The notes beneath the pieces are model-generated. The model was not told the DNA's origin. It was given only the letters and a program-made list of their open reading frames with translations, and ran no database searches. The translations under genes and the position numbers were made by a program. DNA of 44,064 nucleotides from Planctomycetota bacterium (GTDB lineage Bacteria > Planctomycetota > SZUA-567 > H5-PLA8), in assembly GCA_026692735.1 (NCBI GenBank), contig JAPLOD010000705.1, positions 1-44,064 of the forward strand, given 5' to 3'. Below, piece by piece: positions 7,845-44,064 of the stretch (position 1 is its first letter; the number at the start of each line of letters is the position of its first letter).

Positions 7845-8066
7845 ATGCCTGCGACCTTTGAGCCTGGCCGGATGACCATCGCCGAGAAACTCCGAGCAAT
7901 GGAAGCGCTGTGGGAGGACTTGTGCCGGGACGCCGAAGCCAGCCTTGCGCCGCCGGCCTGGCATCGTCGGATCCTGGAAGCACGCGCGCACGCTGTCCGG
8001 CGAGGCAAGGACAAGCCGGTTGAGTGGGAGACCGCCAAGAAGAGAATCCGCAAGGCGGTGTCATGA
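7845..8066 (+). CDS. Putative addiction-module antitoxin (Unstab_antitox / TIGR02574-like), apparently orphan
   Basis: MPATFEPGRMTIAEKLRAMEALWEDLCRDAEASLAPPAWHRRILEARAHAVRRGKDKPVEWETAKKRIRKAVS; AGGAG upstream; ATGA overlap at its 3' end. Confidence 0.75.
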   Translation: MPATFEPGRMTIAEKLRAMEALWEDLCRDAEASLAPPAWHRRILEARAHAVRRGKDKPVEWETAKKRIRKAVS

Positions 8067-8120
8067 AGCTTTCGACATGAGATCGAAGACGCGGCCGCAG
8101 ATGGCGCGGGCGAGGGCTTC

Positions 8121-9125
8121 TCAGGCTCCGCATCCGACCGCCGCGCACAGCGCCTTCAGGTTCGCCTTGGGTGTGTTGACGGGGATCTCGCACCCCGCGC
8201 CGGCCATATAGGGGTTGCCTACCGTCTTGTAGATTCTCCGAACCGCGGCTTTGATCTTCGCGGGCGTGCTGTCCTGCACGTCCGCGACAGGGTTCAGGTT
8301 CCCCACCAGGGCCGTGCGCGCCGGCAGGATCTTTCGCGCCGCGGCGATATCCACCTGCCAGTCCAGGTCCACGATCTCGCAGCCGAGTTTCGCGATGCCA
8401 GGGAGGAGGTGGTTGATCCTGCCGCAGATGTGCAGCCGCACGATCCCGCCGCGCGCATGGATGCCGTCAACCAGGCGTTTCTCGCGCGGCCAGATCAGTT
8501 TCTCGTAAAGCTGCGGCGACACCTGGCTGGCGATGGCGTCGCCGATGCCGATGGTGTCCGCGCCGGCTTCGAGCTGCGCCGCGGCGAACGCGATGCCGGC
8601 CTCGACGCAGATGTCCATCAACGTGCAGCAGTAGCCGGGCTCGTCCATCAGGTCCATCAGGAAATTGCCGGGCGTGCGCAGCGTGGACATTTCCGCGGCC
8701 GGGCCTTCGACCCAGCCCAGTATCGAATACTTGTGGAAGGCGAACTTCCTGTACGCTTCAACGGCGCGCACTCGGTCCAGCATACGGGCTGACTTGTGAG
8801 GATCGGGCTTCTTCAGCAGGGCGAGGTCCTTCGCATCCTGCAGCGGCGCGTGCGGGCAGCGCGGCACGCCGTCTGTGACGTACTTGATCTTGGCCCCGAA
8901 GCCCTGCGTCTCGCGGAACGGATCGGAGATCGTGCTCACCTGGTCGAAGCCGAAGTGCTCGGCGCACTCCCGGTTGGACTTCACCAGCACGCGGTAATCC
9001 GATGCGAACGCGCCGTAGTTCGACCCGATGAACTTCGCGGCATACGCCATCAGGATCGGCAGGCGCGGCAGGACGTCCACCTTCTGGCCCTTCAGCACGC
9101 CCATGTAGCGTTCAAAGCTGTTCAT
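8121..9125 (-). CDS. Uroporphyrinogen decarboxylase (URO-D)-like / corrinoid methyltransferase-like protein
   Basis: 334 aa from MNSFERYMGVLKGQKVDVLPRLPILMAYAAKFIG; EAGADTIGIGDAIASQVSPQLYEKLIWPREKRLVDGIHARGGIVRLHICG...LVGNLNPV. Confidence 0.85.
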   Translation of the reverse strand: MNSFERYMGVLKGQKVDVLPRLPILMAYAAKFIGSNYGAFASDYRVLVKSNRECAEHFGFDQVSTISDPFRETQGFGAKIKYVTDGVPRCPHAPLQDAKDLALLKKPDPHKSARMLDRVRAVEAYRKFAFHKYSILGWVEGPAAEMSTLRTPGNFLMDLMDEPGYCCTLMDICVEAGIAFAAAQLEAGADTIGIGDAIASQVSPQLYEKLIWPREKRLVDGIHARGGIVRLHICGRINHLLPGIAKLGCEIVDLDWQVDIAAARKILPARTALVGNLNPVADVQDSTPAKIKAAVRRIYKTVGNPYMAGAGCEIPVNTPKANLKALCAAVGCGA

Positions 9126-16252: not shown

Positions 16253-17263
16253 TCAGGCTCCAGCTTTCTTTCTTCCCAGGAAGTAGAACGCCGCCGCAGC
16301 CATGTGCGCCTTCCTGGAGCGGCATGCAATGTAATCGAGGAACTTGACCGGCCACAGGACCCAGCCGGCCACGCAGCGGACACAGTTGAAGAGGTAGAAG
16401 TTCGAGAAGACCGAGGCTTTGAGCGTCGGCACGATGGCGACAAACGCGCTGCACGGCCCGCCGCACACGCCGGCATCAAGTTCGTCAAAGCCGCGCAGAG
16501 CATGGCGCAGGCCGTCGAGCGTCCAGCGCCAGCGGTCGAGCGGGTCGGGATGGGTCGGGAAGAGGAAGGGCACGGTGACGTAGACATGCCCGCCGGGCTT
16601 GACCACGCGCGCGATCTCGTCCAGACATGTGTGCGCATCGGCCACATGTTCGAGCACGCTGGTGCAGATGACGCCATCCACGGAAGCGTCAGCGAAGGGC
16701 AGGCGGTGCATGTCGGCGAGGAGGAGTGTGCTCTTGGCTCTTGGCTGTTGGCTGTTGGCTCTTGGCTCTTGGTTTCCGGCGCCTGTGTGCTCAATTTTGC
16801 ATTTTTCATTTTGTATGTTGAATTGTGGAAGCACGAGATCCACGTTGACGACATGTTCGCCCCACGCGGTGTCTTTGGAGCCAAGGTTGAGCACCAGGCC
16901 GCCGGCCATCGCTTCCTTCACGCGCGCGGTGCGGCGGCGGGCGCCCGGATCGCAGATGGGATTGGGCGGCAGCAAGGCGCGGAAGAAACGGCTCCCCCGC
17001 ACGGCCTGGTGAGCGTCGTGGAAAGCGGCGAGACTCGCCTGGATCTCCGTCGCGCGGCTGGGCGGCCAGAGCCTGGGGACGCCGTTCTGGATAGGGAACG
17101 TGGCCGCACAGGCCGCGCAGCGCAGGGAGGTGGCAGCTTCCGCCCCGCAATCCGGCGGAATGCGAGACAAAGGCCTTCGGCAATCAGGACAGACGAGGAG
17201 ACTTTCGATTATGGCCCGACGGCCCGCTGGCTCAGCCTGTGCCTCTTGGGTTCCACCCGCCAC
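16253..17263 (-). CDS. Class I SAM-dependent methyltransferase with N-terminal zinc-ribbon (Trm112-like) segment
   Basis: CPDCRRPL...CAACAATFPIQNGVPRL; GLVLNLGSKDT; NVDL; DMHRLPFADASVDGVICTSVLEHV; EIARVVKPGGHVYVTVPF. Confidence 0.85.
   Translation of the reverse strand: MAGGTQEAQAEPAGRRAIIESLLVCPDCRRPLSRIPPDCGAEAATSLRCAACAATFPIQNGVPRLWPPSRATEIQASLAAFHDAHQAVRGSRFFRALLPPNPICDPGARRRTARVKEAMAGGLVLNLGSKDTAWGEHVVNVDLVLPQFNIQNEKCKIEHTGAGNQEPRANSQQPRAKSTLLLADMHRLPFADASVDGVICTSVLEHVADAHTCLDEIARVVKPGGHVYVTVPFLFPTHPDPLDRWRWTLDGLRHALRGFDELDAGVCGGPCSAFVAIVPTLKASVFSNFYLFNCVRCVAGWVLWPVKFLDYIACRSRKAHMAAAAFYFLGRKKAGA
16734..16826. repeat. Heptamer arrays D inside the methyltransferase gene: TTGGCTC TTGGCTG TTGGCTG TTGGCTC TTGGCTC TTGGTTT, then CAATTTT GCATTTT TCATTTT GTATGTT GAATTGT
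   Basis: Direct reading; 6 units at 16734-16775 and about 5 degenerate units at 16792-16826. Confidence 0.9.
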
Positions 17264-34533: not shown

Positions 34534-36110
34534 TACAGAACCACACCGGTTGCCGCAGCGATGATCTTCTCTTCCGTGGCCTGCTCGTTAACGAATTCCG
34601 CCACGAGCCGGCCGTTGCGCATCACCAGAATCCGGTCGCTCAGCCCCAGGATCTCCTGCAGATCGGACGAAATCATGATGATGCCCACGCCCGTCGCCGC
34701 CAGTTCGCGCAGCAGGCGGTAGATCTCGCTGCGCGCGCCCACGTCCACGCCGCGCGTGGGCTCGTCCACGATCAGCACGTGCGGCTCAATCCCGACCCAC
34801 ATGGCCAGCAGCACCTTCTGCTGATTGCCGCCGGAGAGCGTCGCGGCCTGCTGCCGAATGCCGGTGCAGACGATGTTGAACTTCCCGCGGCTGGCGTCCG
34901 CGAAGGCGCTCAACGCAGCCTCGTCAATCAGGCCCGCCTGCCCGGCGAAGCGCGGCAGACTCGGCGCGGCGCAGTTGTCGCGGATGGTCATGCGCAGGAA
35001 CAGGCCCTGGAGCTTGCGGTCTTCGGTCTGGTAGCCGATGCGGTGGCGGATCGCTTCCCGCGGGCTGCGGACGCGCACGCGTTCGCCCCGCAGGTAGAGC
35101 GCGCCCCTGTCGAGTGGCTCAACGCCGAAGATGGCGCGCCCCAGTTCGGTGCGCCCTGCGCCCACGAGCCCCGCCAGACCCAGAATCTCGCCTTCACGCA
35201 GCGCGAAGCTCACACCGGCGAAGTCCTCGCCGCGGCCGGCGTTTTCGGCGCGGAAACACACCTCGCCGACGGGCGACTCGCGGCGCCCATAGACGTTCTG
35301 CAGTTCGCGCCCCACCATTTTGCGGACGAGCACATCCTCGGTGACGGCGCTCACGTCGCAGGTGTCAACGTACTGCCCGTCGCGCATCACGGTGACGCGG
35401 TCGGCAATCTGAAAAATCTCCTGCAGATGGTGCGAGATGTAGATGAATGCCGTGCCTCCCTGCTTCAGGCGCCGGATGTTCTCAAAGAGCAACCGTGTCT
35501 CGATCGCGGTGAGCGACGAGGTCGGCTCGTCGAGGATGACCACGGCGGGCCGCAGGGAGAGCGCCTTGAGAATCTCAACCACCTGCTGCTGCGCGACGGA
35601 GAGGTTCTTGAGGAGCGCGGTGGGCCGGACATCGAGCTCGAACAGTTGCAGGAGTTGCTCCGTGTCCGCGTACAGGCGCCGCCAGTCAATCAGGTCCGCC
35701 GTGCTCACGGGCTGACGGTTGGCAAAGATGTTCTCGGCCACGGTCAGATTGGGGACGAGGCTCAGTTCCTGGAAGACCACGCCGATGCCATGCCGAGCCG
35801 CCTGGTGCGGGTTGGCGAACCTCACCGCACGGCCGTCGAGCAGCATGGCGCCTTCGTCCGGCTGGAAGACGCCGGCGACGATGTTCATGAGCGTGCTCTT
35901 GCCCGCGCCGTTTTCGCCGACCAGCGCGTGGACTTCACCGCGCCGCAGCTCGAAGCGCGCTTTGTCGAGCGCGCGGACGCCGGGGAAGGTCTTGACCACG
36001 TCACGAAGCTCAAGGACCACGCCACCCGTCTGCGGATCGCGGATTGCGGATTGCGGATTGGCTTCAATCACCCGTCGCACCTCGCCGGTCGCAGCGCTCT
36101 CTCCGCTCAC
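34533..36110 (-). CDS. ABC transporter ATP-binding protein, sugar type with two ATPase domains (RbsA-like)
   Basis: GENGAGKSTLMNIVAG, LSVAQQQVVEILKALSLRPAVVILDEPTSSL, TLSGGNQQKVLLAMWVGIEPHVLIVDEPTRGVDVGA. GTG start overlaps the upstream stop (GTGA). Confidence 0.93.
   Translation of the reverse strand: MSGESAATGEVRRVIEANPQSAIRDPQTGGVVLELRDVVKTFPGVRALDKARFELRRGEVHALVGENGAGKSTLMNIVAGVFQPDEGAMLLDGRAVRFANPHQAARHGIGVVFQELSLVPNLTVAENIFANRQPVSTADLIDWRRLYADTEQLLQLFELDVRPTALLKNLSVAQQQVVEILKALSLRPAVVILDEPTSSLTAIETRLLFENIRRLKQGGTAFIYISHHLQEIFQIADRVTVMRDGQYVDTCDVSAVTEDVLVRKMVGRELQNVYGRRESPVGEVCFRAENAGRGEDFAGVSFALREGEILGLAGLVGAGRTELGRAIFGVEPLDRGALYLRGERVRVRSPREAIRHRIGYQTEDRKLQGLFLRMTIRDNCAAPSLPRFAGQAGLIDEAALSAFADASRGKFNIVCTGIRQQAATLSGGNQQKVLLAMWVGIEPHVLIVDEPTRGVDVGARSEIYRLLRELAATGVGIIMISSDLQEILGLSDRILVMRNGRLVAEFVNEQATEEKIIAAATGVVL
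36031..36058. repeat. Heptamer array I inside the ABC ATPase N-terminus: TGCGGAT CGCGGAT TGCGGAT TGCGGAT
   Basis: Direct reading; encodes ANPQSAIRDPQ on the minus strand. Confidence 0.9.
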
Positions 36111-37338: not shown

Positions 37339-40300
37339 GTGAGCATGCAACAGTTCGTGCTGACAGGCTCCCAGGGATCGTTCACAGTGCCGTCCGGCGA
37401 GAGCCGGATCGGCAGTGACGCGGCGTGTCAGATATGCCTCCACGGCGAGGGGCTTCTGCCCATCCACGCGTACCTGAGCACCGACGGCGAGAAACTGCTG
37501 ATCCGCCCGGCGAGCGCCGCCGGCTCGTCCTCCGAGTCCGTGGCCGGCTTCGTGGCCGTGAACGGGGAGCCGCTGACGGGGCCGGCGACGCTGGTGGCCG
37601 GCGTTGAGGTGTCCATCGGCAGCGTGAAACTGCGGCTGGCGGCCAGCCGCGTGCGGACGGCGCTGTGGAACCGCCGCTGGTTCCGGCGGCTGGCCTGGAG
37701 CATGGGCGTGCTGGCACTGCTCGTGGCGGTCGCCTACGCGGTGCTGATGTGGGTCATTCTGGATGAGCGGTGGCTGAAAGAATGGCTGGCCAAGGGCGTG
37801 ACCGAGCACCTGCTGCGCGACGAGACGGAGATCGGCTCGATCCGCGTCAAACCGTTCGAAGGCAGCATCACCATCGAGAACATCAAGATCAAGGATCGGG
37901 ACAATTTCTCGGGCAGCCAGCGGCCTTTCGTTGCCGTCCCCAAGGCGGCCATCAATCTCGAGGTCTGGCCGTGGCTGCGAAGCTGGGGCCGCGAGTACAG
38001 GAACCTCCGGATCGTCGTGTCCAACCCCGAGATCAACATCGAACGCTCCAAGACGGACGGCGCGCTGAACATCCGGGATATCGTCAAGAAATACTCGCAG
38101 GGGCAGCCGAGCCTTGACCTGGGGCTGGTGCAACTGGACGCGCGCCTGGAGGTGAAGGGCGCCAAAATCGTCCTCCACGACTACTACACGAATCTCGACA
38201 GCAGCCTGGAGGACATCAACATCGAGCTCCGCCAGCCCGGTGCGGGGCAGCCGCTCGAGATCAAGACCTGCGAAATGCGGATCGCCACCGCCGCGCCCGC
38301 GCCCCAGGGCGCTCTGAAGCTGACCGGCGAGGTCAACCTGCTGGACGCCTCGGCCGTGATTGACAGCGCCACAATCAGCTCCAAGGGCCTGCACGCAGAA
38401 CTGACCGACTTCGACCTGGCGCGCTTCTTCGAGCACCTGGGGTATGCGTGGGCGCCGCATGGCATGGACATCAAAGTGGTCCTGGGCAAACCGATCAGCG
38501 GCAAGGCGGATGCGGTGGTCAAAGACATCCACACCGTGTGGCTGGGCGGGGCGGTCCGGAGCGCGAGCCTGCTGTCCATCAGGGAAGAGGGCCGGCCGCC
38601 GATGGGCAACATACCCATGGGGCTGACGTTCGACCTGAATTTCAGCGACAGCGCACGCGGGTTCCTGCCGGACAAGATGAACATCGGCCTGCTCTGCGGC
38701 GCCGACCTCAACAACCCGTACCTGGTCTTCGGCGCGGCGGGCAGGCTGAACCCCGGCGGCACCAGCGAATATACCGTCAACCTCGAGTGCAGCCTGCAGG
38801 ACCTGCTGGGCACCGATATCGGCCGGCGCCTGGGACTGGACGGGCGCCTCGGCGGGCGCCTGCAGGGCACAGCTAAACTCCGCGGCCTGAGCGACGGCGC
38901 CTGGAAGATTGACGCCAAAATGGAGAGCGGCGACGCCTATGCCATGGTCGCGCATCCGACCGACCCGTCCAAGCCGCCCGTGCGCCAGCCGCTGCCTCTG
39001 GACTTCCAGTACCACGCCAGCGCGCAGCCAAGCGCGAGCGGCGGGATCTCGGAGCTGGAGGTGACCGGCTTCAAGATCAGCGCGCCGTCCTTCGAGGCCT
39101 GCAGCGAGGTGCCGGGCCAGATCAAGGGCCTGGACCGCAAAGGCGCGCTCGATGCGCACGCGAAGTTCACGCTGAAAGTGAAAGGCCGCGAGTTCTGGCG
39201 GGATTTCAAGCCGATCCTGGTGCTGTTCGGTTTCACGCAGCCGATCGAGGAGGTGCTTGATCTCGAAGTGACGCTCGTCGGCCGCAACGATCGCGTCGAG
39301 ATGGCCGCCAAAGGCAAAGCGGCCAGGCAGTGGCATGCCGATCCCGCACCGGTCAGACTGCAGACATATGTGGAGTACAACAGAAAGGCGGCCACGGCGC
39401 GAACGCCGGCCTACGCGCCGCCATACCTGTCGCTGATGCTGGAAGTCAACGCCGAGGAAGCCAAGCCGCTGCGGGTGCGCGTTGACGCGCAGTGCCAGCG
39501 TAGCGACCGCGCCGAGATCGTGGCGCTCGAAACCTACGCGCCGAACGACAAGGACCGCCAGACGCCGCTGCCGGGCCTGACGATCCAGTCGGACATCGTC
39601 GCGCTGCGCGAGCGCTTTCAACCGTACATCGAAGGGTACCTGGCCAGCCATGATAAGTTCTACAAGACGGAGGCCAACGGGTGGCTGAAGCGCTACCGCG
39701 ACACGACGGTGACCGGCGAACTCGAAGAGGCCGGCCGCCTGGTTATCGAGCGCATGCTCGACCCGAAAAGCCTCGTGGCGGACCAGGTGCGGTTCGACCT
39801 GAACATCGCGGCCAAGAGCCTGGACACCAGGATGCCGCATCCTCCCTCGCTCACGGGCGCTGCGCCGCCGGAGAAAGCGGCGGCGGAGCCGTGGAACTGG
39901 AAAGAGGATGTCGTGCATCTCGGGCTGCGCGGCGCGTATGCCCAGCGCTTGAGCGACAACAAGGAGGAGCCGGATACCGAGAAACTGGGCATCGAGTACC
40001 TCGACGTCAGAGGCTCCATCGGCGCGTTCCGCCTCACACTGAACGACCTGGACCTGTTCAAACTGTCCCATCTCCGCGGCCTGGCCAACCAGACCTGGAC
40101 CGACTGCCTGGCGGAGCTGACCGTCGCGGGACAGCTCGACCCGCCGGCCTGCCAGTTGGCCCGCTCGCTGCACGTGCTGCAGCCTGACAACCCGCTCTCC
40201 GGCACGCTGGCGCTGCAGATCGGCTTCAACCGCCAGAAGGACGCGCTGAACCTGCAGCGATTCGAGTTCCGGCAGACCGAGCAGAAACAGAACCTGCTCG

Positions 40301-42957
40301 CGAATCTCGACATGACGGGGGCCCTGGTGCGGGTGCGCGAGCTGTCGTCCCGGCTGTTCCCCGCCGGCGACGACACGCCCTTCAGCGAGCAGGTGGCGAC
40401 GTTCCTGCAGGACGCCGGCCCGGCCGCGCTGCTGGACCACCTGGGCGACGAACTGACGATCAACGCCGCGCAGCTTGAGACCGGGCCGTTCCTGGTGTGG
40501 CTGTGCAAAGACTACAAGAGCGGCGCGCGCAAGCCGCCGCCGCTCCTCGCCGGACTCCTGGCGAACGACTGGCTGCCGGAAGGGACCTGGAAGGCGACCG
40601 GCGTGAAGCTGGCACGCAAGGGCGAGCCGCGGGAACGCAAGTGGAGCCTGGTGGGCGGACTGCGGACCGATTTCACGTGCTACGGCCCGCCGCGTGAGCC
40701 GGGCGCGCCGCGAACCGGCGTGTTCTCGCTGAGCCACGACTGGGCGCTGCAGGTGGGGCTGTCCGTGGACCAGAACAGCAACTTCGGCCTGCAGGGGAAC
40801 GTGCTCCTGGACAAGGCGTTCATCGCGGCGTCGTTCCCGAACCTGAGGTACGAGTACAAGAAGCCCGCCGCGGAGCCGTGCGAGGTCGCCCTGGCCGACT
40901 GCTGGTACTCACACGGCCGCAAGCCGCTGGCACACATCGGCAAGCTGACGGTCTCGGGCAAGCCCGTGGGCCTCGAGCTCAAGGAGCTCGACGTGGACTA
41001 CACCCGCGGGCCGGCGGGCAGCTTCCAGCTTGGGGAAGCGATCATCGCGGGCGGCCCGCTGCCGTGCGTGGTGAGCATCACCAAGCTCGAGCCCGACGCA
41101 GACATGCTCAACGCCCGCGTCAGCGCGCCCACCGCGGACATGGCGTACCTGAGCAGCCTGCTGAATCTGCCGCCGGCGCTGAGCGCCACGGGAACACTGC
41201 GGGACCTCAACGTCTCCTACAAGGGCAGCATTGCCGGTTTGCGGGCGCAACTGGAGAGCGACACTGCCGCGCTGGCCCAGCGTCTGAAACTGGAGCCCAC
41301 CGATCCGCGCCTGAACGGCCTCAACCCGCAGACAGATGCGCTCGTTGTGGATGCCAGCGCCCAGGACGTGCGGCTCAAAGCGTCCGCGCAAGCCGACACC
41401 GGCGCGGAACTGCGCCTGAGCGGCAAGCTGCGCCTGACCGCGCGGGACCTGACCGGCAAGCAGGACCAGGAGCGCAGGAACTTCAGCGTGGAACTGGCGC
41501 ACCAGACGCCGCAGGGCACGCTCAAACAGACGTTCACCACCCCTGCCCTGCAGATCGCCTCCGCGGACGCGCGCCTGAACCTGGCGCGTGCCTTCCGCGC
41601 GCCGGGCGTGCCGCTGAGCATCCAGGGCGACGTGGAGTTCAGCAGCGGCCTCAATCCTGCGACCTGGCTGGCGGGCCTCGAGGTCCTTGCCGCGGCTCGC
41701 AGCGCCACGCTGGCGCCCGCTCCCGCCCCCGCTGATGAGTACCGGCTTGCCGCGCTGGAGAAACTGGAGGTGAGCGGCTCGGCAAAGGTGCCGCAGTGCC
41801 TGGTCAACGGCGAGAAGCTCCCGGCCATGGATGCCCGGCAGCTCACGTTCAAGAACCTGAAGTGCAGCGTGCCGCAGCTCACGACGGAGCTGTACGGCGG
41901 GAAGCTCGCGCTGCCCGATTCGGACTTCGATCTGACGAAAGCCGTAGCCACGCGGACGGGCGAGATGGCCAGCCTGAAGGGCGTGGCGTTCCGGCTGCGG
42001 CCGGAGCTGACCGACGCGGACCTGGCGCAGATGCTGGGGGATGTCGCGCCCGGAACCCTCGGCTACAGCGTCAGCGGGCGCGTGAGCGCGCGGGGCAACC
42101 TGGACGGAACGGACTTCAGCGGCATGGACCGCCACACGTGGGACGGGGCCATCAAGTTCAAGGTGACGGGCCTGACCGTGAAGCCGCCGCGCCGGACGGA
42201 AGCAGCGCCCGCCGCCGTGCCGCCGTGGACGCTGCCGTTCGCGGGCTTGGGCCAGCAACTGCTCGGAGCCTTCCTGACGACGGCCAATACCGCCTCGGCC
42301 TGCGTGCTTGACCTCGTGAAGGACCTCCCGGTCGTTGAGGCGCTCAAACCCCTCAACGGCTGGGCGCTGGCGCTGCAGACGTACCTGGCGCGGGCGTTCG
42401 GCGTGGAAGTGGAGCAGTTGGAGTTTGAGCCGGTCACGCCGACGGTGATGGTCACCAAGGGCTTCGCGATCGTAGACCGCTGCCAGCTCATCGGCCGCGG
42501 CAAGTGCGAGGGCCTGGACCTGGAGATTGCCAGCCTGAAGGTGAACCTGGCCGAGAAAACGTTCGCCGATGAAGTGCGCATCTACCCCGTGGCGCTGCCT
42601 AAGTCGGCCAGAGCCGCTCTGAACCTGGACAAGTGGCCGGCGGCCGTGCAGCAGGACTACTTGCGCGACATGCGCGATGGGAAGATCGCCCTGCGCGTGC
42701 AAGGGCCGGTGGCGGCTCCGACGATCAGATTCCCGTGGGCCACGGTGCGCTCATACGGGCGGCGGGCGCTCTTCGGGGAGGCCAGCATCAGCGACCTGGA
42801 CGGGCTGGAGAAAGCGCGCCAGCATCTGCTCACCACTTGGGGCCGGACGCCGCAGGAGCTGGCCGCCGCCGCGGCCACGGGCGACCGCATGGGCGCGGGG
42901 CTGCCCAGCACCGCTCAGGCAACCAAGGACCGTGAGACGGTCCTCGACCATGAGTGA
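37339..42957 (+). CDS. Very large FHA-like - transmembrane - AsmA/TamB-like envelope protein (about 1872 aa; GTG 37339 or ATG 37345)
   Basis: FHA-like N-terminus FTVPSGESRIGSDAACQICLHGEGLLPIHAYLSTDGEKLLIRPA...VAVNGEPLTGPATLVAGVEVSIGSVKLRL, then RRLAWSMGVLALLVAVAYAVLMWVIL (TM), then AsmA-type VTEHLLRDETEIGSIRVKPFEGSITIENIKIKD...RNLRIVVSNPEINIERSKTDGALNIRDI. Confidence 0.8.
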   Translation: MSMQQFVLTGSQGSFTVPSGESRIGSDAACQICLHGEGLLPIHAYLSTDGEKLLIRPASAAGSSSESVAGFVAVNGEPLTGPATLVAGVEVSIGSVKLRLAASRVRTALWNRRWFRRLAWSMGVLALLVAVAYAVLMWVILDERWLKEWLAKGVTEHLLRDETEIGSIRVKPFEGSITIENIKIKDRDNFSGSQRPFVAVPKAAINLEVWPWLRSWGREYRNLRIVVSNPEINIERSKTDGALNIRDIVKKYSQGQPSLDLGLVQLDARLEVKGAKIVLHDYYTNLDSSLEDINIELRQPGAGQPLEIKTCEMRIATAAPAPQGALKLTGEVNLLDASAVIDSATISSKGLHAELTDFDLARFFEHLGYAWAPHGMDIKVVLGKPISGKADAVVKDIHTVWLGGAVRSASLLSIREEGRPPMGNIPMGLTFDLNFSDSARGFLPDKMNIGLLCGADLNNPYLVFGAAGRLNPGGTSEYTVNLECSLQDLLGTDIGRRLGLDGRLGGRLQGTAKLRGLSDGAWKIDAKMESGDAYAMVAHPTDPSKPPVRQPLPLDFQYHASAQPSASGGISELEVTGFKISAPSFEACSEVPGQIKGLDRKGALDAHAKFTLKVKGREFWRDFKPILVLFGFTQPIEEVLDLEVTLVGRNDRVEMAAKGKAARQWHADPAPVRLQTYVEYNRKAATARTPAYAPPYLSLMLEVNAEEAKPLRVRVDAQCQRSDRAEIVALETYAPNDKDRQTPLPGLTIQSDIVALRERFQPYIEGYLASHDKFYKTEANGWLKRYRDTTVTGELEEAGRLVIERMLDPKSLVADQVRFDLNIAAKSLDTRMPHPPSLTGAAPPEKAAAEPWNWKEDVVHLGLRGAYAQRLSDNKEEPDTEKLGIEYLDVRGSIGAFRLTLNDLDLFKLSHLRGLANQTWTDCLAELTVAGQLDPPACQLARSLHVLQPDNPLSGTLALQIGFNRQKDALNLQRFEFRQTEQKQNLLANLDMTGALVRVRELSSRLFPAGDDTPFSEQVATFLQDAGPAALLDHLGDELTINAAQLETGPFLVWLCKDYKSGARKPPPLLAGLLANDWLPEGTWKATGVKLARKGEPRERKWSLVGGLRTDFTCYGPPREPGAPRTGVFSLSHDWALQVGLSVDQNSNFGLQGNVLLDKAFIAASFPNLRYEYKKPAAEPCEVALADCWYSHGRKPLAHIGKLTVSGKPVGLELKELDVDYTRGPAGSFQLGEAIIAGGPLPCVVSITKLEPDADMLNARVSAPTADMAYLSSLLNLPPALSATGTLRDLNVSYKGSIAGLRAQLESDTAALAQRLKLEPTDPRLNGLNPQTDALVVDASAQDVRLKASAQADTGAELRLSGKLRLTARDLTGKQDQERRNFSVELAHQTPQGTLKQTFTTPALQIASADARLNLARAFRAPGVPLSIQGDVEFSSGLNPATWLAGLEVLAAARSATLAPAPAPADEYRLAALEKLEVSGSAKVPQCLVNGEKLPAMDARQLTFKNLKCSVPQLTTELYGGKLALPDSDFDLTKAVATRTGEMASLKGVAFRLRPELTDADLAQMLGDVAPGTLGYSVSGRVSARGNLDGTDFSGMDRHTWDGAIKFKVTGLTVKPPRRTEAAPAAVPPWTLPFAGLGQQLLGAFLTTANTASACVLDLVKDLPVVEALKPLNGWALALQTYLARAFGVEVEQLEFEPVTPTVMVTKGFAIVDRCQLIGRGKCEGLDLEIASLKVNLAEKTFADEVRIYPVALPKSARAALNLDKWPAAVQQDYLRDMRDGKIALRVQGPVAAPTIRFPWATVRSYGRRALFGEASISDLDGLEKARQHLLTTWGRTPQELAAAAATGDRMGAGLPSTAQATKDRETVLDHE

Positions 42958-44064
42958 TGGGGGACGGGTTTCGGGTATCGGGTGTCGGGTATCGGGTTCC
43001 GGGTTCCGGGTCCCGGCTTCGGGATTTGAGCCTTGGGCTTTGGGATTTGGGGCTTGGGATCTGGGATTTGGGACTTGGGATTTCCCATTTCCTCGCTGGT
43101 CTGTGGGTGCTGTGGCTCATCTGTGGTTCCGCTACGGCCGCCGCGGAGACGGAGGGGCCAAGCCCGACGTTCAACGCGCCTGCGGTGAAGGTCAACACGC
43201 AGGTCGTCAGCATCCGCGAAGTCGAGACGGTGTTCTCGGACAGCCACGTGCTGATCCAGGACAGACTCGGACGAGGCGAACTCAAGCCGGCCGGCCTGGG
43301 CCCCGCCATCCGCGCGGCGTGGAAAGACGCGCTCGAAACCGCCACGCAGGACAAGATCATGGACCAGCGCGCCGACAAGCGGCGTAAGGACATCATCAAG
43401 TACTACCTCGCACGCGCCGGAGGCGACTACGGCGGCGACCGGGCGCTGGAGTTCTTCAAACGCGAGGAGGCCGACTGCGTCCGGCGCCTGCGGAGGGAAC
43501 TGATCGCGGCGGCCGGCGGCGAGGCCGAACTGCGCGCGGCGCTGAAACGGCGCGGGCAAACCATGCAGGAGTGGGAAGCCGGGCTGACGCGTGAACTGTT
43601 CCGGCGCGACGTCCTGGCGCTCGAACTGGGCCCCATCGTCCCTTCGCCCGCCGCGACGCGGGCGTTCTACGACAAACACCCGGAGCTGTTCAAGCAGCCC
43701 GATGCCTGGCGGCTGCGGCGGATACGCATCGCCAAGGACAGGTTCAAGACGCCCGAGGTCGCGCTGGCCGCGGCGAAGATGGTGCGCGAGAAAGCGTCGG
43801 GCGGCGCGGACTTCGCGGAACTGGCGGCGAAAGTGAGCGACGACCCGGAGTTTGCGTCGCAAGGCGGGGTGCTGACGCGCGACGGCAAGAGCGACCTGCC
43901 GACGGGGAACTTCCCCCGTGAGGAACGGATCGCGGAGAACCTTAAGGACGGCGGCGTCGCCGACCCCGTGGATGCCGGCGACTGGTACGTGATCGTGCAG
44001 CGCGTCGCGTATCAGCCTATGTGCATGCGGAGCTTTGAGCAGGCGGGCGAGCGCGCCGAAGCTC
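42957..44064 (+). CDS. SurA/PpiC-like periplasmic peptidyl-prolyl isomerase/chaperone, truncated by window end; absent from the ORF track because it has no stop in the window
   Basis: Frame 3 is open from ATG 42957 (TGATG overlap with the preceding stop) to 44064. ISHFLAGLWVLWLICGSATAAAE signal-like; KVNTQVVSIREVETVFSDSHVLIQD; PSPAATRAFYDKHPELFKQPDAWRLRRIRIAKDRFKT...ASGGADFAELAAKVSDDPEFASQGGVLTRDGKSDLP is PpiC-like. Confidence 0.82.
   Translation, partial: MGDGFRVSGVGYRVPGSGSRLRDLSLGLWDLGLGIWDLGLGISHFLAGLWVLWLICGSATAAAETEGPSPTFNAPAVKVNTQVVSIREVETVFSDSHVLIQDRLGRGELKPAGLGPAIRAAWKDALETATQDKIMDQRADKRRKDIIKYYLARAGGDYGGDRALEFFKREEADCVRRLRRELIAAAGGEAELRAALKRRGQTMQEWEAGLTRELFRRDVLALELGPIVPSPAATRAFYDKHPELFKQPDAWRLRRIRIAKDRFKTPEVALAAAKMVREKASGGADFAELAAKVSDDPEFASQGGVLTRDGKSDLPTGNFPREERIAENLKDGGVADPVDAGDWYVIVQRVAYQPMCMRSFEQAGERAEA
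42966..43091. repeat. Heptamer array L, 18 units: GGGTTTC GGGTATC GGGTGTC GGGTATC GGGTTCC GGGTTCC GGGTCCC GGCTTCG GGATTTG AGCCTTG GGCTTTG GGATTTG GGGCTTG GGATCTG GGATTTG GGACTTG GGATTTC CCATTTC
   Basis: Direct unit-by-unit reading; 126 nt, a multiple of both 7 and 3. Confidence 0.97.

Follow-up and report, generated by a model that had tools for sequence, protein, structure and literature searches.

Bacterial heptamer repeats are usually treated as intergenic. Among the described families, quadruplex-forming GGGNATC heptamer repeats are known in Xanthomonas and Nostoc (Rehm et al. 2015, PMC4692102), and the TAACTGA heptamer repeats of Beggiatoaceae mostly end just upstream of a start codon and were proposed to be untranslated regulatory sites (MacGregor 2015, PMC4679880). 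Literature searches found no paper dedicated to heptamers in planctomycetes. Here we describe a heptamer array at the junction of an AsmA-like gene and a SurA/PpiC-type PPIase gene of an uncultured planctomycete, where the array probably encodes the N-terminus of the PPIase. The window, the 44,064-nt stretch of DNA that was analysed, is contig 705 of a single 9.13-Mb MAG (1014 contigs, 86% complete). Its features are collected in Table 1.

Table 1. Coordinates of the features discussed, as positions within the window
Feature	Position	Strand	Basis
AsmA/DUF748-like gene, C-terminally shortened	37339..42957	+	Pfam DUF748 E 1e-15; tail alignment with relatives
Stop-start overlap: GTG 42954 (4-nt, GTGA) and ATG 42957 (1-nt, TGATG)	42954..42959	+	Sequence; same double junction in G004
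Array part 1: CGGGTNY x8	42965..43020	+	Includes GGGTATC units; perfect G-quadruplex motif
Array part 2: GGGATTT-like x9-10	43021..43090	+	Second quadruplex motif; in-frame TTG 43026, 43047, 43068
Whole lag-7 periodic tract	42950..43092	+	Lag-7 segment score 57.8
Putative signal-peptide hydrophobic core and cleavage region (FLAGLWVLWLICGSATAAAE)	43089..43148	+	Sequence; signal-peptide screen; predicted helix 41-57, low confidence
SurA/PpiC-like PPIase, mature part, cut by contig end	43149..44064	+	Pfam Rotamase_2; SurA profile match
Array apparently encoding NPQSAIRDPQ, ABC ATPase N-terminus	36032..36060	-	GTG start 36071, strong SD (-10.1)
96-nt in-frame heptamer tract in methyltransferase gene (17263..16253)	16730..16825	-	Lag-7 identity 0.69

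The array at the AsmA-PpiC junction

The array spans 42965-43090 and consists of 18 units (126 nt). Its lag-7 identity is 0.76, compared with 0.26-0.46 at lags 5, 6 and 8, and its lag-7 score of 57.8 exceeds every value from 2000 dinucleotide shuffles (mean 5.0, maximum 14.7). The units are heterogeneous, with at most two identical neighbours. Two of them match the exact GGGNATC consensus (both GGGTATC), and genome-wide the GGGTTCA/C forms dominate. The tandem 7-nt GGG units, with at least four G-tracts, include two quadruplex motifs with 4-nt loops within 42959-43079; RNA folding with and without quadruplexes (-90.4 versus -86.9 kcal/mol) is not decisive.

The AsmA-like ORF encodes 1872 aa and ends in TGA 42955-42957, which overlaps ATG 42957-42959. 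The frame from this ATG reads MGDGFRVSGVGYRVPGSGSRLRDLSLGLWDLGLGIWDLGLGISHFLAGLWVLWLICGSATAAAE into the PPIase, and GTG 42954 shares that frame one codon earlier. Both the overlap and the passage of an open PPIase frame through all 18 heptamers had been claimed in an earlier note on this DNA, and sequence and translation bear them out. The periodic tract begins at 42950 (ATGAGTG ATGGGGG ACGGGTT...), so the AsmA stop and both overlapping starts sit in array-like sequence; the density of AGTGAYG heptamers is 6.8-fold higher near arrays (within 40 nt) than away from them (19 and 168 hits). Nevertheless, the open frame is weak evidence of translation, because 49 of the 78 frames (63%) of G-rich arrays of at least 60 nt in this genome are open by composition.

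The downstream protein contains a PpiC-type PPIase domain, with a Rotamase_2 match of 41.8 bits (cut-off 27; E 2e-10) and a profile match to SurA structures (E 6e-9). Its hydrophobic core, FLAGLWVLWLICG, opens at the last codon of the array, TTC 43089. In the AlphaFold model, residues 1-40 have no confident structure (pLDDT 30-38), residues 41-57 form a helix predicted at low confidence, and the confidently modelled core starts at about residue 75.

The same gene pair in relatives

We compared the junction with six genomes of the same family (loci L032-L037, 45-53% identity), an alignment to orthologs of the kind the earlier note had proposed as a check. All six keep the AsmA-PpiC pair, array-free, and in each the PpiC-like gene starts 0-73 nt from the AsmA stop and continues into an ordinary signal peptide. 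The start is at the stop in G004, 1-2 nt past it in G001, G005 and G003, 26 nt past it in G002 and 73 nt past it in G006, where the ATG was chosen by the analyst. The nearest relative, G004, reads CCATGATG and has the same double ATGA/TGATG junction.

The window AsmA aligns with its relatives up to DRMGAGLPSTAQATKDRETVLDHE, ending where the array begins. Their AsmA tails extend a further ~45-130 residues, in which a (S/T)PxxxLxKLL-like motif recurs and the end is rich in proline; all of this is missing in the window. Compared with the relatives, the window PpiC also lacks a start codon and n-region of its own. These alignments indicate that the array has replaced the AsmA C-terminal tail along with the original start and n-region of PpiC. 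The earlier suggestion of an insertion between the start codon and the signal peptide is thus at odds with the six relatives, which point to replacement of the junction and not to simple insertion. Likewise, the arithmetic behind its remark that 126 nt keeps the frame is true, but the argument from a multiple of three is uninformative for an array that replaced flanking sequence instead of inserting cleanly.

Candidate start codons of the PpiC-like gene

Five in-frame start codons precede the hydrophobic core: GTG 42954, ATG 42957, TTG 43026, TTG 43047 and TTG 43068. The only one 3' of the array, GTG 43107, lies inside the core and leaves a signal peptide cut to the stub MLWLICGSATAAAE. Export of the protein would therefore require translation of at least the distal part of the array. 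An array that serves wholly as an untranslated spacer, with initiation downstream of 43091, was the outcome named by the earlier note as the one that would overturn its reading, and this now looks unlikely. Its choice between translation from the ATG and a restart within the array still stands.

Most likely, the PpiC-like gene starts at the stop-overlapping GTG 42954/ATG 42957 by termination-reinitiation. In tested native gene pairs, reinitiation drops steeply within ~20-40 nt (PMC10666635), and a stop-start overlap suits such a mechanism. Among 320 tandem gene pairs, 4-nt overlaps are common (50/320) and 1-nt overlaps rare (1/320), which makes GTG 42954 a candidate for the true start. At GTG 42954 and ATG 42957 a Shine-Dalgarno (SD) site is absent: the values there, -3.0 and -2.7 kcal/mol, compare with a median of -6.2 for gene starts and -2.6 for random sites. 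The n-region predicted for full translation of the array, 44 residues with net charge 0, is also unusual against 108 SD-supported genes (median 6, 95th percentile 34, 82% positive), as judged by a home-made signal-peptide screen and not by SignalP.

Heptamer arrays across the genome

In a 1.13-Mb sample of this genome we counted 138 lag-7 arrays and 0-7 arrays at each of the other lags from 4 to 15, except 14, a multiple of 7. Only 13% of array bases fall in predicted CDS, though 85% of the sample is coding by gene calls from a simple codon model written for this analysis. Arrays in tandem gene pairs have their G-rich strand on the sense strand in 42 cases and on the antisense strand in 9 (p = 3e-6); in 21 of the 42 sense cases, no more than 20 nt separate the upstream stop from the start of the array. 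Sense-strand placement near stops is the rule in this genome, and the junction array, which begins at the stop, follows it. The longest array in the sample by far is a continuous run of ~490 nt of GGTATCC/GGTATCT heptamers (L076, 1072-1565, G000:C446), which adjoins the AGTGACG and GCCAAGA families.

The GGGTTC form is lineage-specific, with 109 matches in this genome, 42 in G006 and none in the other five family members. The 42 pattern matches of G006 belong to a separate expansion in that genome, whose unit is GGGTTCT. Since the unit differs in G006 and the five other members have none, the expansions look independent.

Other genes that may read through arrays

In a screen of 1.38 Mb, the frame at the gene start is open in 38 gene-array pairs, and 10 of these have no good start past the array. 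Not all 10 are convincing: L076, L095 and L157 were left uncounted because the genes are weak or start at or after the array. Nonetheless, at least five further genes in this sample appear to start ahead of an array, three of them with strong Shine-Dalgarno sites. The BamB-like gene of L075 (9193-9226) has a GTG with GGAGGAG upstream (SD -9.3), followed by the array, read as KPKPDTRNPIP, and then VCLAAVLLCAAARA. The outer-membrane efflux protein of L107 (about 437-478) has an ATG (SD -9.2) and the array-derived LALRSSFVRRLLP ahead of its core. In the ABC ATPase of the window, the array-encoded residues precede VVLELRDVVKTFPGV and form part of an N-terminal extension that is missing in orthologs; an alternative GTG at +51 has a weaker SD. 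In L069 (6756-6841) an ATG is followed by NPPPNSQVPNPNSQIANPPIPNPQSAIRNRR and then by a membrane segment common to orthologs L177-L179, which have array-free tails of a similar kind, in whose place the L069 array stands. The signal peptide of L089 (3799-3832) is predicted to be MKHSGFRMQNWVVSLFILNFAFCIPLSAA, with a core that is itself heptameric. The arrays at L075, L107, L069 and L089 belong to genes for exported or membrane proteins and seem to be translated there as an n-region, a cytosolic tail or the core of a signal peptide.

An array may also be read within a domain. The tract in the class-I methyltransferase gene (Table 1) comprises two adjacent arrays, exactly 32 codons, between VNVDLVLP and LLLADMHRLPF, where the shorter order-level homologs L225/L224 read VNTDIRLLEGVHVVADVHMLPF; this placement was made by eye, and automatic alignment positioned the gap differently. 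A structure model from three sequences (pLDDT 34) is too poor for checking it. Because the methyltransferase domain keeps one frame before and after the tract, any functional product of the gene has to include the translated array.

A further candidate, mnmG/GidA in L091 (G000:C704, about 8060-8270, minus strand), was dropped as an N-terminal case. The gene apparently passes from one frame to another exactly where a heptamer array lies, which suggests that it is broken or that the assembly is wrong there.

Interpretation of the junction

The best explanation, and one that we consider probable, is that the array supplies both the AsmA stop and the PpiC start and that it is translated in full, in frame, by reinitiation. 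The junction would have been taken over by a G-rich heptamer array, dispersed in the genome and specific to the lineage, of the type usually found just 3' of stops on the sense strand. This array would have displaced the 3' end of the AsmA-like gene together with the start and n-region that the downstream PpiC-like gene originally had. Array-like sequence would now provide the stop TGA and the overlapping GTG 42954/ATG 42957, and ribosomes terminating on AsmA would reinitiate at the overlap and read the array in frame. Its product would be a weakly constrained N-terminal segment of ~44 residues ahead of the signal-peptide core, to be removed by cleavage on export. Full translation is favoured because the relatives, without any array, start PpiC at or near the AsmA stop, because the nearest of them has the same double overlap, and because sense arrays near stops are the rule of this genome. 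It is also favoured by the AsmA tail breaking off exactly at the start of the array, by GTG 43107, which would ruin the signal peptide, being the sole start 3' of the array, by the genes that start before an array with a strong SD (the GTG of L075, the ATG of L107 and the GTG of the ABC ATPase), by the array that replaces the orthologs' tail in L069, and by the 96-nt array in frame inside the methyltransferase. Against it stand the missing SD at 42954/42957, the 44-residue uncharged n-region and the high share of array frames that are open by composition.

The main rival start would be TTG 43068 (or another in-array TTG), with the proximal array as an untranslated leader. Initiation at TTG 43068 would yield the signal peptide MGLGISHFLAGLWVLWLICGSATAAAE, with an n-region of normal length, and a weak SD-like G-rich sequence (-4.7 kcal/mol) lies upstream. 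However, TTG is a weak start codon, an in-frame ATG is available upstream at the stop codon, and reinitiation ~110 nt past the AsmA stop is unexpected given its distance dependence (PMC10666635). The n-region also counts against this start in being uncharged, as it is from the upstream starts too; the hydrophobic core is present in both cases. Overall we regard initiation within the array as rather unlikely.

The lost AsmA tail, the n-region without positive charge and the absent SD might instead reflect a damaged junction, either a decaying gene whose PpiC product is poorly expressed or exported, or a short-read misassembly over repeats, and the apparent mnmG split at an array could be counted on the same side. 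Yet the conserved parts of both ORFs are intact, the hydrophobic core and an A-rich cleavage region are still present, and the array units are diverged enough for assembly, which together make damage improbable. The position of the array directly after a start codon and a unit length not divisible by three also recall contingency loci, where a length change of one or two 7-nt units in either direction would shift PpiC out of frame and turn it off; SSRs have been reported, in work cited by PMC4692102, to be over-represented near N-termini. But the units are heterogeneous and not near-identical (lag-7 identity and identical neighbours as above), which speaks against slippage; a housekeeping-type chaperone would be an odd target, and arrays are spread across all kinds of loci. 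We therefore consider a phase-variation switch highly improbable.

In this genome, heptamer repeats have apparently been co-opted as protein N-termini and as one domain insert, with relatives array-free at the AsmA-PpiC junction. More broadly, it is possible, though we hold this only tentatively, that heptamer arrays keep supplying this planctomycete lineage with material for new coding sequence. They would be captured time and again as n-regions, as cytosolic tails, as a domain insert and, in L089, as a whole signal peptide, since these positions tolerate almost any sequence and stop codons rarely close the arrays. The junction offers a tractable case of repeat-derived coding sequence and of weak constraint on signal-peptide n-regions, and should caution those who annotate start codons in planctomycete genomes rich in repeats.

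Comparison with known systems

The junction protein resembles the SurA/PpiC/PrsA parvulin-type PPIases in its PpiC-type domain, its match to the E. coli SurA profile and the signal peptide of its relatives, but differs in an N-terminal segment that is array-encoded; its C-terminus lies beyond the contig end. Like phase-variable contingency loci, it has a repeat directly after the start codon with a unit that is not a multiple of three, but the units are diverged, the protein is not a surface antigen, and the single MAG of the genus that was covered gives no hint of variation. The arrays share with the Beggiatoaceae TAACTGA repeats (PMC4679880) the form of dispersed heptamer direct repeats beside gene starts, a few overlapping ORFs, although the unit differs. 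The closest parallel is with the GGGNATC repeats (PMC4692102), which are also 7-nt, G-rich, dispersed and mostly non-coding, have at least four G-tracts, and lie on the sense strand between co-directional genes, near or overlapping stop codons; GGGTATC itself occurs here. The present genome has more unit families (GGGTTCA/C, GGGATTT, GGATTGC, GTGACGA). The array type and position are already known, and what appears to be new is the repeated in-frame use as an N-terminal segment, as at this junction, where the array spans two genes and lies in frame as the N-terminus of the next protein.
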